DNA of 22,363 nucleotides from a virus, in the IMG/VR virus record IMGVR_UViG_3300030116_006926, positions 1 through 22,363 of that record; one strand, 5' to 3'. A program made the position numbers and the translations under genes. A model generated the notes under the pieces. It did not search any database. It saw only the letters and a program-made list of their open reading frames with translations, and was not told the origin of the DNA. This document shows, piece after piece, positions 5,309 through 11,188 of this stretch. The stretch's first letter is position 1. Each line of letters begins with the position of its first letter.

Positions 5309-6933
5309 ACTATTGTCTCCTTGTTCTCTTGTTTAATAAATTCATCTTGTATTTCTTCTTTCTCTAAACCTTCTTTCGGAAGTTTCAAAACTCTTATAGG
5401 TGGAAACGGTTTTTCATTATTACCTTGCGGAAATCTTTTTTGACAACTAAACTCTCCACCAAAATATTGTTCTATCATTGTAGCAGTTCTTGATCTTTCT
5501 TTAATCCAGTCTCCACGTTTTAATTCTGAATAAAAAATATCATAGATAAAAAAATAATAATCATCTTCAACAAGAACAGCTCCAGATTTAAAAGCTGCAA
5601 ACGTGCTGGCTTGAGGTCCGTTAACAAATTCAATTAATTCTTTTTTCAACATGTCCAACGGATTGGTGCCTGCAGGTGGTTTAATAGTTTCCATGTTTGC
5701 CCACAAAGTGTCTAGTATAACTTGATATTCGTTTTGTTTTAATATTGGTGGAAATATAGGTGTCTGTTCTGCTATCAACGCACGCATCTCTTTCATCTCT
5801 GCTATTTTTTTAATATGCTTTGCATGTATTTGTACAACCTTACCATCAGCTAAATCTATGTTTATAAAAAACTCTGGATCTGGTTTGTAGTCCATTTTAA
5901 TTAATCCAGATACTTGAGGCCATGTTGTACTTCTATGACTACCAATACCAAATTTTCTTTTCAAACAAGTTCCTTTTGCACAATAAGATGAAATAGGTAG
6001 ATCACTACACTTAAAACCTTTAGTTTCATTTTTCCAATATTTAATTTTATCTTTTACTTTCTCATCACCCCAGACTGTGTCATACACAATATAATTTCTA
6101 GCAGCCTCTAAAACTTTTTTATCCCAATCATCTGGATATTTTTTCTTAGCAAACACCATGTAATTATATAAAAATCTATCTCTTTCATCGCTTAGTTTGG
6201 TTCCTGATGCCTGAATCTCTTTGCATATCATCTGTAAACAAGGTGGGCCATCGTGAAACTCTTCAGGTCCACCAGTTATTACTTCTGTAATTTTTTTGTT
6301 ACCTATTTCTTTTAAAGATTCTTCTGTTTGTAAATTAAGACCTACGACCTCTATAAATTTTTTTAAATCCATCCGTGTACCATCAGGTAAAATACCCCTA
6401 CGCTCGGTGCCTTTGTAATAAGGTAAATTAATAAAACTACCAGATGTCTTTTCGTTGTTTTGATTTACACCTAGTTTAGTTTGTTTAGGAAATATTTCTG
6501 TATTGTGTGGAAGTTTAAATAAAAATAGTAAGTTCGATAAAAACTCTCTAACTAAAGTAGCAGGGACTTTTTCTTTTGTAAAAACGTATATGTGCAGCCC
6601 ACCACTTTTAGATTCTATTGGTATTACGGGTAAGTTTTTTTCTTGTATTATATTTAAATATTTTTCTAATTTAAAATTTTTATAATTCTTAGGATCTACA
6701 TCTATGGCACCAAAGCTAGCTTTAGCATCATCATCACAGGGTTGAATACCAATAGCTTTTCTGCCGTCAAGATGATCTTGATAATCTTGTGCAGTTATAT
6801 GTCTTTTCGACCAACCGTAATCACCAGGGTCAAATTTAATTTTACCAGAGTCTGGATCTACATAGCCTTTGTCTACATTACAGAACCCGTAATCTCTTTG
6901 TAATCCAGTAAAAAATTTTTCAAATTCTCGCAT
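5305..6933 (-). CDS. Archaeo-eukaryotic-type primase (TOTE/PrimPol-like) with Cys-rich PriL-like region
   Basis: This 542-aa protein is the likely replicative primase. The N-terminal AEP catalytic domain (about 1-190) shows GAIDVDP (D78, D80, metal ligands), SKSGGLHIYVF (S108-H114, nucleotide-binding S-x-G/H motif), EIFPKQ (E146) and SFINLPYY (about 166-173). This is the pattern of primases in phages and TOTE conflict systems. A middle region carries GPPCL (C232) followed by spaced cysteines C309, C318 and C323, reminiscent of the 4-Cys Fe-S domain of the large primase subunit PriL. That assignment is inference. The C-terminal 200 residues are unassigned. No Shine-Dalgarno sequence precedes the ATG. 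A hairpin with a U-rich tail directly abuts it. The next in-frame Met lies far inside (about 188), so this start is needed to keep the catalytic domain. Confidence 0.88.
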   Translation of the reverse strand: MREFEKFFTGLQRDYGFCNVDKGYVDPDSGKIKFDPGDYGWSKRHITAQDYQDHLDGRKAIGIQPCDDDAKASFGAIDVDPKNYKNFKLEKYLNIIQEKNLPVIPIESKSGGLHIYVFTKEKVPATLVREFLSNLLFLFKLPHNTEIFPKQTKLGVNQNNEKTSGSFINLPYYKGTERRGILPDGTRMDLKKFIEVVGLNLQTEESLKEIGNKKITEVITGGPEEFHDGPPCLQMICKEIQASGTKLSDERDRFLYNYMVFAKKKYPDDWDKKVLEAARNYIVYDTVWGDEKVKDKIKYWKNETKGFKCSDLPISSYCAKGTCLKRKFGIGSHRSTTWPQVSGLIKMDYKPDPEFFINIDLADGKVVQIHAKHIKKIAEMKEMRALIAEQTPIFPPILKQNEYQVILDTLWANMETIKPPAGTNPLDMLKKELIEFVNGPQASTFAAFKSGAVLVEDDYYFFIYDIFYSELKRGDWIKERSRTATMIEQYFGGEFSCQKRFPQGNNEKPFPPIRVLKLPKEGLEKEEIQDEFIKQENKETIV

Positions 6934-8796: not shown

Positions 8797-8818
8797 ACAA
8801 TTAGAAAGTAAAAGTAAA
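8789..8818 (-). promoter_or_regulatory. Possible divergent promoter for leftward 111-aa gene
   Basis: On the minus strand TATATT (-10, 8789-8794) lies 18 bp from a weak TTTACT (-35, 8813-8818). It overlaps the rightward promoter, so polymerases may compete. It is supported only by position and a fair -10. Confidence 0.35.
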
Positions 8819-8819
8819 C

Positions 8820-10259
8820 ATGAATTATAAATTTAAAACAAAGCCTTATGCGCATCAATTAAAAGCTTTAGAACGTTCTTGGGATAAAGAATACTTTGCC
8901 TATTTTATGGAAATGGGTACAGGTAAATCTAAAGTGTTAATTGATAATGCATCAATGCTTTATGACAAAGGTGAGATTAATGGGCTTCTCTTGATTGCTC
9001 CAAAAGGTGTATACAAAAATTGGTACGAAGGTGAGATACCTACGCATATGGTTGACCACATTGAAAAAAATGTAGTGCTATGGCAGACTTCTAATAATAG
9101 CACTGAACAACTAAAAAAACTAAATAGTCTGTTTGCAACGGGTACAGATTTTCATATTTTAGTCATGAATGTGGAGGCTTTTTCTTACCCAAAAGCCACA
9201 AATTTTGCCATGCGTTTTTTAAATTCACATAAAGCCATGGTAGCAATTGACGAGTCTACAACTATCAAAACTCCTACAGCTAATAGAACAAAAAATATTA
9301 TTAAATTAAAAGAGCTATCTAAGTACAGAAGAATTTTAACTGGTTCTCCTATCACAAATTCACCATTAGATCTTTGGAGTCAGGCTCAGTTTCTTGATTC
9401 CTGGCTCTTGGGGTTTGATTCGTATTGGGCGTATCGTGCACACTATTGTATTATGAAAACTATGAACCTAGGGTCAAGAACAGTTAGTGTTCCTGTTGGA
9501 CCCAACAGAAGAAACATACCAGAACTAGAAGATAAGATAAAAAAATTTAGTGAACGTGTTTTAAAAGATGAGTGTTTAGATCTCCCTAAAACAACTTACG
9601 TCACCAGAGAGATAGAACTTACAGGTGTACAAAGAAAACTTTATGATGAGATGCGAAGATACGCTATCTCAGAACTTGAAGGTAAAGTTTGTTCTACATC
9701 TACAGTCATGGTGCAGTTATTGAGACTACATCAAATATCGTGTGGCTATCATGCAACAGATGATGGAAAACCGCAACAGTTGCCTTGTAATAGGTTGACA
9801 GAACTTATGGATATTATTTGGGAGCTGTCTGGCAAAGCTGTGATCTGGTCCTATTATCAAAAAGATGTTGAAAGAATAATTGAAGAAATAAAAAAAACTC
9901 ACGGAGAAAATTCTGTCGTAGATTACTACGGACTTACCCCACAAGAAGATAGACAGAACAATATAAAAAAATTTCAAGAAGATCCTGAGTGTAGATTTTT
10001 TGTGGGCACTACACAAACGGGCGGGTATGGTATCACATTAACAGCTGCTAGCACAATGATTTATTACTCTAATGGTTATGATTTAGAAAAAAGATTACAA
10101 TCAGAAGCAAGAATAGATCGTATTGGCCAAGAAAAACCTATGACCTATATTGATTTAGTTGCTGGCGATACAATAGATACTAAAGTGCAAAAAGCTCTTC
10201 GTGATAAAATGAATATTGCAAGTGAGGTCATGGGCGAAGAATTAAAAGCTTGGATTTAA
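8820..10259 (+). CDS. SNF2-like SF2 helicase/ATPase
   Basis: This 479-aa DNA-dependent ATPase/helicase shows ordered SF2 motifs. They are a Q-like YAHQLKAL (10-17), Walker A MGTGKS (32-37), LLIAPKGVYKNW (motif Ia region, 57-68), motif II DEST (144-147), motif III LTGSPITN (173-180), GGYGITLTAA (401-410) and motif VI QSEARIDRIGQ (427-437), the last typical of the SNF2 group. It lacks accessory domains, as compact phage versions do. It probably translocates on dsDNA during replication, recombination or host takeover. It is transcribed opposite to all other replication genes, with its own promoter upstream and a hairpin terminator overlapping its stop codon, so it is a self-contained unit. The Shine-Dalgarno is weak (AGAAAG). 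Confidence 0.95.
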   Translation: MNYKFKTKPYAHQLKALERSWDKEYFAYFMEMGTGKSKVLIDNASMLYDKGEINGLLLIAPKGVYKNWYEGEIPTHMVDHIEKNVVLWQTSNNSTEQLKKLNSLFATGTDFHILVMNVEAFSYPKATNFAMRFLNSHKAMVAIDESTTIKTPTANRTKNIIKLKELSKYRRILTGSPITNSPLDLWSQAQFLDSWLLGFDSYWAYRAHYCIMKTMNLGSRTVSVPVGPNRRNIPELEDKIKKFSERVLKDECLDLPKTTYVTREIELTGVQRKLYDEMRRYAISELEGKVCSTSTVMVQLLRLHQISCGYHATDDGKPQQLPCNRLTELMDIIWELSGKAVIWSYYQKDVERIIEEIKKTHGENSVVDYYGLTPQEDRQNNIKKFQEDPECRFFVGTTQTGGYGITLTAASTMIYYSNGYDLEKRLQSEARIDRIGQEKPMTYIDLVAGDTIDTKVQKALRDKMNIASEVMGEELKAWI

Positions 10260-10285
10260 CACAACTGTAAGTTGTGTGTATTTTT
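10259..10285 (+). terminator. Intrinsic terminator of SF2 helicase
   Basis: A perfect 8-bp stem, ACACAACT (10259-10266) / AGTTGTGT (10270-10277), with a 3-nt GTA loop is followed by GTATTTTT. It begins on the last base of the TAA stop codon. Confidence 0.85.
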
Positions 10286-10326
10286 GCAACACTTTAAAAA
10301 AAAATTACACTTAGCGTAAAAAGTGA

Positions 10327-10355
10327 TTGACCAATATATAGTGGGTGTGGATAAG
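10327..10355 (+). promoter_or_regulatory. Possible weak upstream promoter
   Basis: TTGACC (10327-10332) and GATAAG (10350-10355) are spaced 17 bp. The -35 matches 5 of 6 and the -10 matches 4 of 6. It may be a secondary start feeding the same rightward operon, or chance. Confidence 0.3.
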
Positions 10356-10408
10356 TAACACTACATCTTGTGTCAAGAAATTTATTTTTTATTTTTTGTC
10401 GATTTTTC

Positions 10409-10437
10409 TTGCAATCAAAATTTATATATCTTATAAT
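10409..10437 (+). promoter_or_regulatory. Sigma-70 promoter driving leader RNA and small-gene operon
   Basis: TTGCAA (10409-10414) and a perfect TATAAT (10432-10437) are spaced 17 bp. The predicted start (10443-10445) coincides with the first base of the 12-bp closing stem of the downstream RNA element, which supports both calls. Confidence 0.75.
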
Positions 10438-10443
10438 CTCCCA

Positions 10444-10606
10444 TATGCAAAACTTAATTAAACTTTTTAAAAGTTTGAGATGGTTTGTTATTAAAACCGA
10501 TTGGTAGAAGACAAGCTGATCTTTAGTTCTATCGGTCGCAGTAATAGGAGTCACGAGTTTAGAGCAGCAACTAAACTCATAAAAGTTCTCGTCCAAGTTT
10601 TGCATA
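10444..10606 (+). ncRNA. Candidate structured leader RNA (riboswitch-like or phage ncRNA)
   Basis: The 163-nt element is closed by a perfect 12-bp helix, TATGCAAAACTT (10444-10455) with AAGTTTTGCATA (10595-10606). Inside are an A/U hairpin (10460-10476), a two-part helix (ACCGAT 10496-10501 with ATCGGT 10531-10536, plus AGAA 10506-10509 with TTCT 10527-10530), and a perfect 8-bp hairpin GAGTTTAG/CTAAACTC (10555-10562/10571-10578). An unpaired AGGAG lies at 10546-10550. The multi-branched shape, exact fit to the promoter start, and position just before the RBS (GCGAGG, 10615-10620) of the 48-aa gene suggest a cis-regulatory leader. It matches no RNA family I can recall. An independent small RNA or a replication-origin structure are alternatives. 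Confidence 0.6.
10445..10507 (+). CDS. Possible leaderless 20-aa leader peptide
   Basis: An ATG at 10445-10447, at the predicted transcription start, opens a 20-codon frame ending in TAG at 10505-10507. The peptide (MQNLIKLFKS then LRWFVIKTDW) alternates hydrophobic and basic residues and would be an amphipathic cationic helix. No Shine-Dalgarno sequence precedes it, so translation would have to be leaderless. The ORF overlaps the 5' arm of the closing RNA stem and could be fortuitous. Confidence 0.25.
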   Translation: MQNLIKLFKSLRWFVIKTDW

Positions 10607-10625
10607 CTAACAAAGCGAGGAAAAT

Positions 10626-10772
10626 ATGAACAGACGAAGAGGACCAGTAATAACACAACAGTGGCTTGCAGATTTTTATGCCAACGGTGTTCAGGGAAAA
10701 TACAAAGCTAGTATTAAAAAAGCTGCACAAGAAAATAACAATAACAAGAAAGATAAAAAGGAGAAAAAATGA
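10626..10772 (+). CDS. Small basic protein (48 aa), unknown function
   Basis: The first gene of the rightward micro-operon begins MNRRRGPVITQQWLADFYANG and ends in a lysine-rich tail (KKDKKEKK). A GCGAGG ribosome site lies five bases before the ATG. The protein is strongly basic at both ends with a short aromatic helix-like middle, so nucleic-acid or acidic-partner binding is conceivable, but no family is recognised. Its TGA overlaps the next ATG (ATGA), which indicates translational coupling. Expression should depend on the promoter at 10409-10437 and on the structured leader. Confidence 0.8.
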   Translation: MNRRRGPVITQQWLADFYANGVQGKYKASIKKAAQENNNNKKDKKEKK

Positions 10773-10933
10773 GTACAAAAGCAAAAGTAGAAAGCTTACC
10801 AGAGGACTTTAAAATTTCAGATAAACAATTACTGATATTAATTTCAGATTTATTTGAAATGGTAAAGGACAATAATACACTTATTAATATTTTAGATAAA
10901 AGAGTTAAGTTATTGGAGAAGAAAGATGTATAG
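10769..10933 (+). CDS. Small helical protein (54 aa), unknown function
   Basis: The gene begins at an ATG preceded by AAGGAG and overlaps the upstream TGA. The sequence (MSTKAKVESLPEDFKISDK, then a Leu/Ile-rich segment LLILISDLFEMV and a charged C-terminus) looks like one or two amphipathic helices, possibly oligomerising. It has no catalytic motif. The hydrophobic stretch is too interrupted by charges for a confident transmembrane call. Its TAG overlaps the start region of the 75-aa gene, so the three genes are a coupled unit. No family is recognised. Confidence 0.78.
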   Translation: MSTKAKVESLPEDFKISDKQLLILISDLFEMVKDNNTLINILDKRVKLLEKKDV

Positions 10934-11153
10934 ATACATAGGCGTAGAAAAAGACACTCCAGATTTTCCAAGAGTATGGGGTGAAGGTAAGACACACACT
11001 GAAGCTAGATTACAATGTGAGATAGCTTTAAGAGAAAAACTTTTAGGTAAGATAGAGAGAGGTTGTTCTGAAACCCTTGCTCAACCCGAAAGATACATAA
11101 TAAAAGAAGATAAAGAGAAAAAGAAAATAAGAAAAGACGGTTGGATTATCTAA
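10926..11153 (+). CDS. Small protein (75 aa), unknown function
   Basis: This last gene of the rightward micro-operon overlaps the previous stop (GATGTATAG), with TTGGAGAAG as ribosome site. The protein starts MYRYIGVEKDTPDFPRVWG, has a central helix (THTEARLQCEIALREKLLGKI) and a highly charged C-terminus (KEDKEKKKIRKDGWII). The N-terminal beta segment followed by one helix resembles small phage accessory proteins generally, but I cannot assign a family. Transcription probably ends near the hairpin at 11165-11188. Confidence 0.82.
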   Translation: MYRYIGVEKDTPDFPRVWGEGKTHTEARLQCEIALREKLLGKIERGCSETLAQPERYIIKEDKEKKKIRKDGWII

Positions 11154-11164
11154 CCAAACTAGCC

Positions 11165-11188
11165 AAGGCGATCAGAAATGGTCGCCTT
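11165..11188. terminator. Hairpin between convergent operons
   Basis: AAGGCGATC (11165-11173) pairs with GGTCGCCTT (11180-11188), a 9-bp stem with one G-U pair and a 6-nt loop. It lies between the convergent 75-aa gene and the late operon and overlaps the late operon's final stop. U-tracts are weak on both sides, so it may be an inefficient bidirectional terminator or a 3'-end stabiliser. Confidence 0.55.

Follow-up and report, generated by a model that had tools for sequence, protein, structure and literature searches.

A palindrome-ended insertion in the leader region of an accessory operon of a pelagiphage genome fragment

The window, i.e. the whole stretch of DNA analyzed here, is a virus record of 22,363 bases. 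It encodes a DNA polymerase A with 80% identity to the counterpart in Pelagibacter phage HTVC027P (MN698241), which is also the best match for its 1415-aa structural protein; judging by these two matches, the window is a fragment of the genome of an HTVC027P-type pelagiphage (SAR11 phage). The segment of interest is located between the helicase gene (8820-10259, plus strand) and three tiny genes that make up an accessory operon, beyond which the structural genes lie on the opposite strand. The following features were distinguished at this locus:

10409-10437, plus strand: sigma-70-type promoter TTGCAA-17-TATAAT (-35 box TTGCAA at 10409-10414, spacer of 17 nt, -10 box TATAAT at 10432-10437)
10442-10445, no strand: left copy of the direct repeat CATA (TA, if the target duplication is 2 bp), single in nine of nine empty sites
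10444-10455, plus strand: left terminal inverted repeat with TA, TATGCAAAACTT, 5' arm of stem P1; from the sequence, most positions pairing with a probability of about 1 when the element is folded alone
10446-10604, plus strand: inserted element TGCAAAACTT...AAGTTTTGCA, 159 bp, delimited by the alignment break between CCCATA and CTAACAAAGCGAGG relative to nine related contigs
10458-10478, plus strand: hairpin P2, an A+T-rich stem of 9 bp; most positions pair with a probability above 0.9 in the element alone
10498-10538, plus strand: hairpin P3, a 12-bp stem with G-U pairs and an inner 3-bp stem; pairing probability of the outer stem about 0.96
10555-10578, plus strand: hairpin P4, a perfect stem of 8 bp with the loop AGCAGCAA; pairing probability about 1
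10595-10606, plus strand: right terminal inverted repeat with TA, AAGTTTTGCATA, 3' arm of stem P1; from the sequence, most positions pairing with a probability of about 1 when the element is folded alone
10603-10606, no strand: right copy of the direct repeat CATA (or TA), by comparison with the empty sites
10615-10620, plus strand: ribosome-binding site GCGAGG of the 48-aa gene, shared with eight of nine relatives, L056 having GTGAGG
10626-11153, plus strand: accessory operon of the 48-aa, 54-aa and 75-aa genes, the first with its ATG start codon at 10626; gene content differs among relatives

None of the three small genes belongs to a family above any curated cut-off. The promoter and the operon form an accessory module (10259-11187) that many relatives with the same helicase lack, and in the module-bearing relatives the first gene 3' of the promoter may be the 48-aa gene, the 75-aa gene or an unrelated one. 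Upstream of the promoter there are a terminator-like hairpin directly 3' of the helicase stop codon (10259-10284) and an imperfect dyad at 10327-10376 (TTGACACAATAT...ATTTTGTGTCAAG in some relatives) around a DnaA-box-like site (10346-10354), followed by an A+T-rich stretch; the dyad and this site are possibly an operator or an origin element. Four contigs (L008, L009, L012, L058) lack the stretch 10260-10326, and L009 and L010 carry about 510 extra bp just upstream of the helicase gene (approximately 5484-5998, opposite window positions 8817-8838).

The original prediction placed a promoter at these coordinates and described a structured RNA starting at the predicted transcription start. The promoter is indeed present and is kept in all nine module-bearing relatives with constant spacing, the -10 box being TATAAT or, in L013 and L056, TATACT; on this comparison, the promoter predates the insertion. 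In nine distinct related HTVC027P-type IMG/VR contigs (L002, L003/L011, L001/L012, L007, L008, L009, L013, L056 and L058) nothing separates CCCATA from the ribosome-binding site, and the leader consensus ...TATAATxTCCCATA(A/C)TAAxAAxGCGAGG... is uninterrupted, whereas the filled site in the window reads CCCATA-TGCAAAACTT...AAGTTTTGCATA-CTAACAAAGCGAGG. The additional segment is 159 bp long (161 bp gained when one TA copy is counted), has 35% G+C and is non-coding, with no credible ORF. Its ends are flush with the inverted repeat, and TA, the target of IS630/Tc1-type transposases, is single in the empty sites and doubled at the junctions in the window. The duplication may be read either as TA or as CATA, because the element ends in CA and CA also precedes the TA of the site, and 4-bp CATA microhomology would explain the junctions equally well.

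The target TA belongs to CCCATA and lies about seven bases 3' of the -10 box in every relative. Hence the agreement between the promoter start and the stem boundary, which had been considered hard to get by chance, is real, but the stem starts at the predicted transcription start because the TA used for insertion lies there, and not by joint design. The rarity of the repeat itself did not hold up. The arms TATGCAAAACTT and AAGTTTTGCATA are perfect over 12 bp at the positions predicted originally and carry TA at both outer ends; at least one perfect 12-bp inverted repeat within 300 bp was found, however, in 51 of 100 dinucleotide shuffles of the A+T-rich window, so that by itself such a repeat is unsurprising at this composition. 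What is not due to chance is that the arms match both ends of an insertion missing from nine relatives. As a background, we compared all loci of the phage group pairwise and collected the segments of 60-450 bp that one locus has and the other lacks. This yielded about 51 indel sites, some of which may represent one event in several contigs; many of them are directly 3' of the helicase gene, and therefore the region is a hotspot of gain and loss. Among these sites, only that of the window's element is bordered by an inverted repeat of more than 8 bp.

The same observations bear on two other explanations. The first is that the segment is debris of illegitimate recombination or a chimera of assembly or amplification, the inverted repeat and CATA being microhomology. 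The chance frequency of 12-bp repeats, the 4-bp direct repeat at both junctions and the occurrence of the element only once, in one contig, are compatible with this, but the repeat ends are also the insertion ends, neither the window nor HTVC027P (57.6 kb) nor the near relatives contained a donor sequence, and the interior is more structured than shuffled sequences (see below). We consider this explanation unlikely. The second is an invertible segment acting as a phase switch, as inverted repeats flank it, or an RNA that primes replication at a phage origin, as the DnaA-box-like TGTGGATAA is located about 90 bp upstream and is invariant in nine of nine module-bearing relatives. No recombinase was recognized near the element, however, no promoter-like site was found inside it on either strand, and in the relatives the site is empty rather than inverted, and therefore the element is dispensable. 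Both variants, including the replication-priming role proposed originally, were rejected since nine relatives do without the element, and their probability is minimal.

The folding of the element was compared with that of shuffled sequences. The folding energy is -44.6 kcal/mol versus -28.9 +/- 3.9 for shuffles (z = -4.06). This value is partly due to the terminal arms; when the 12-bp arms were fixed, the interior had a z of about -2.25, with 8 of 300 shuffles being equally good, and thus the internal hairpins are still beyond shuffles. The minus strand folds equally well (z = -4.5), as expected of palindromic DNA. The predicted internal helices, including the perfect 8-bp hairpin (P4, arms GAGTTTAG at 10555-10562 and CTAAACTC at 10571-10578), were found at the expected places and are stable in the folding; the more extended pairing near P3 has a low probability of about 0.27. 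According to the energy model, the transcribed insert would fold into a leader with four helices.

Other structured segments occur near the helicase/structural junction in related contigs (L020:4975-5075 on the minus strand, L021, L032, L034, L053 and L004:5200-5300), right after the helicase in L020 and after the accessory genes in L004. The motif GGTGG..TTGGTTT..GAACCAAC..GC.GGA.ACCACC in these segments is shared by phages as diverged as the L004 and L020 types and folds well; it matches nothing in Rfam or in GenBank phages and may be an undescribed RNA motif or a terminator.

In the energy model of the full leader, opening of the terminal stem is preferred: the 3' arm of P1 pairs with CAAAGC and TCC with GGA, both in the ribosome-binding region of the 48-aa gene, with the probability of the alternative pairing exceeding 0.9. 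The predicted mean accessibility of the start region decreases from about 0.8 in the empty sites to 0.4-0.55 with the element. If this model holds, the 48-aa gene could be translated less efficiently, or the masking could work as a switch. However, 23.5% of inserts with shuffled interiors mask the ribosome-binding site as much; therefore the masking is no evidence for a selected regulator, and we rejected it as a proof of a switch.

These predictions bear on the possibility that the segment is an acquired functional structured RNA, either a cis-regulatory leader or a processed small RNA, gained by recombination at a hypervariable accessory site. In the cis-regulatory version, the ribosome-binding site would be free when P1 is closed, and the 3' arm would pair there when P1 is open. 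The folding z-score, the strong alternative pairing with the decreased accessibility and the exchange of accessory modules among relatives at this site speak for it, whereas the equal masking by shuffled interiors, the absence of the segment from every relative and from Rfam, and the fact that an RNA gene need not end in TA and flush inverted repeats speak against it. This explanation is possible but doubtful. Very unlikely, in our estimate, is the combination of both ideas, a mobile structured RNA cassette kept as a new translational switch (P1 versus pairing at the ribosome-binding site) for the accessory operon; if true, it would be a jumping palindrome caught becoming a riboregulator in a SAR11 phage.

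Searches for homologs of the element yielded none. In Rfam 15, both the gathering and the relaxed (E up to 10) thresholds produced only weak chance matches, in agreement with the original statement that no known riboswitch or phage RNA family fits, and no tRNA or tmRNA was found. There is no second copy in the 22-kb record, and BLASTN found no relative in 50,697 GenBank phage records and 72,556 PLSDB plasmids, and no copy in 385 + 397 alphaproteobacterial genomes, where the only matches were of 20-55 nt, almost all of them falling in the first 60 nt of the element, which are A+T-rich; 397 of these approximately 780 genomes are from an order with small genomes (about 1-1.5 Mb), probably Pelagibacterales. 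A single-sequence covariance model applied to 98 sources and 50 whole related phage records identified no homolog; a weak match in G813, with E of 0.04 per one record, corresponds to about 2 over 50 records and was rejected.

The pattern scans, which detect near-identical copies only, so that diverged relatives may exist, gave several candidates that were rejected. Exact pairs of terminal repeats in IMG/VR produced 11 + 1 matches that are unrelated to the element and resemble ordinary coding sequence; internal 16-mers and the P4 hairpin gave chance matches or none in IMG/VR, and the L005/L006 matches (CAAAAGTTAGTTAAACTTTTAAAAAGT) are chance ones inside an apparent small gene. The terminal-repeat pattern in 84,980 species genomes had 37 matches with unrelated interiors, some of them being other inverted-repeat elements. 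Three such elements in bacterial genomes (L110:641-788, L123:5521-5668 and L140:2674-2822, from Marinimicrobia and Lampropedia) share GTCAAT(A/C)GCGGG(G/A)CTAT and longer terminal repeats; L108, L114 and L129 are also inverted-repeat elements in bacterial genomes, and a second family of 176 bp has three copies in one Krumholzibacteriota genome.

Thus, while any transcript from the kept promoter would begin with the segment, and in this sense the proposed structured leader stands, it is not a conserved RNA of these phages: all relatives with the same promoter lack it, comparison of the related intergenic regions revealed no conservation of the stems, and no homologs with covarying stems were found in the collections searched.

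Small mobile sequences of bacteria, such as Correia/NEMIS, RUP and Rickettsia palindromic elements (RPE), are non-coding, shorter than 200 bp and A+T-rich, and mostly have terminal inverted repeats, terminal TA and target duplications (Delihas 2007, PMC2229807). The element of the window has this form: it is non-coding, below 200 bp and A+T-rich, with terminal inverted repeats and TA at both ends. Correia/NEMIS of Neisseria (about 100-155 bp) similarly have terminal inverted repeats ending in TA, are A+T-rich and lie near genes, and cleavage of their folded transcripts by RNase III has been proposed (PMC2229807), but they have a high copy number and a shared sequence in Neisseria, whereas our element is a single copy of unrelated sequence in a phage. 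RUP of Streptococcus pneumoniae are also small, with a TA target and terminal inverted repeats, and are proposed to be moved by IS630-Spn1, for which TA targeting is supported (PMC2229807); unlike the element, they have many copies and a known partner IS. RPE (105-146 bp) are palindromic, alphaproteobacterial and have long predicted stem-loops (PMC2229807), but are multi-copy, often inside genes, and some lack terminal TA; the likeness is by description. Finally, the element resembles translational riboswitch-type leaders in the closing stem P1, whose 3' arm alternatively pairs at the ribosome-binding site, but differs from them in having no aptamer family match, no conservation and masking no better than shuffled inserts. 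We call the element MITE-like and claim no membership in any MITE family, because neither a second copy nor a relative nor a transposase was found.

In summary, sequence comparison indicates that the segment 10446-10604 is a real, discrete, palindrome-ended insertion and has become the 5' leader of the accessory operon. The reading we prefer, with a probability of about 0.55, is a MITE-like, non-autonomous palindromic insertion. It accounts for the nine empty sites, the coincidence of the insertion ends with the inverted repeat, the doubled TA or CATA, the size, composition and form, and the internal hairpins beyond shuffles. Arguing against it, MITEs are repeats, yet no second copy was found in the collections searched and no transposase with matching ends was recognized in the window; moreover, the direct repeat of 2-4 bp could be microhomology at an illegitimate junction. 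One HTVC027P-type lineage gained 161 bp at the TA just past the start site of the pre-existing promoter; under the MITE-like reading, a TA-targeting transposase (for example, IS630/Tc1) acting in trans, from the host or a co-infecting element, would have inserted the element and duplicated the TA. The promoter would now yield an mRNA whose first 163 nt fold into several hairpins closed by a common stem; RNase III may cut this structure, as suggested for transcripts of Correia/NEMIS, and the effect on translation of the 48-aa gene would be at most modest.

The segment looks like a small jumping element turned RNA leader rather than a conserved regulatory RNA, and warns that good folding of an intergenic segment seen in one phage does not have to mean a conserved RNA. 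For bacterial chromosomes there are good descriptions of small palindromic mobile elements; a limited literature search gave no report of such an element in this kind of phage. A site at a promoter start in a SAR11 phage, known in both filled and empty form, would demonstrate that the leaders of phage accessory operons, too, are shaped by elements of this type, and how a structured 5' leader can arise in a single step.
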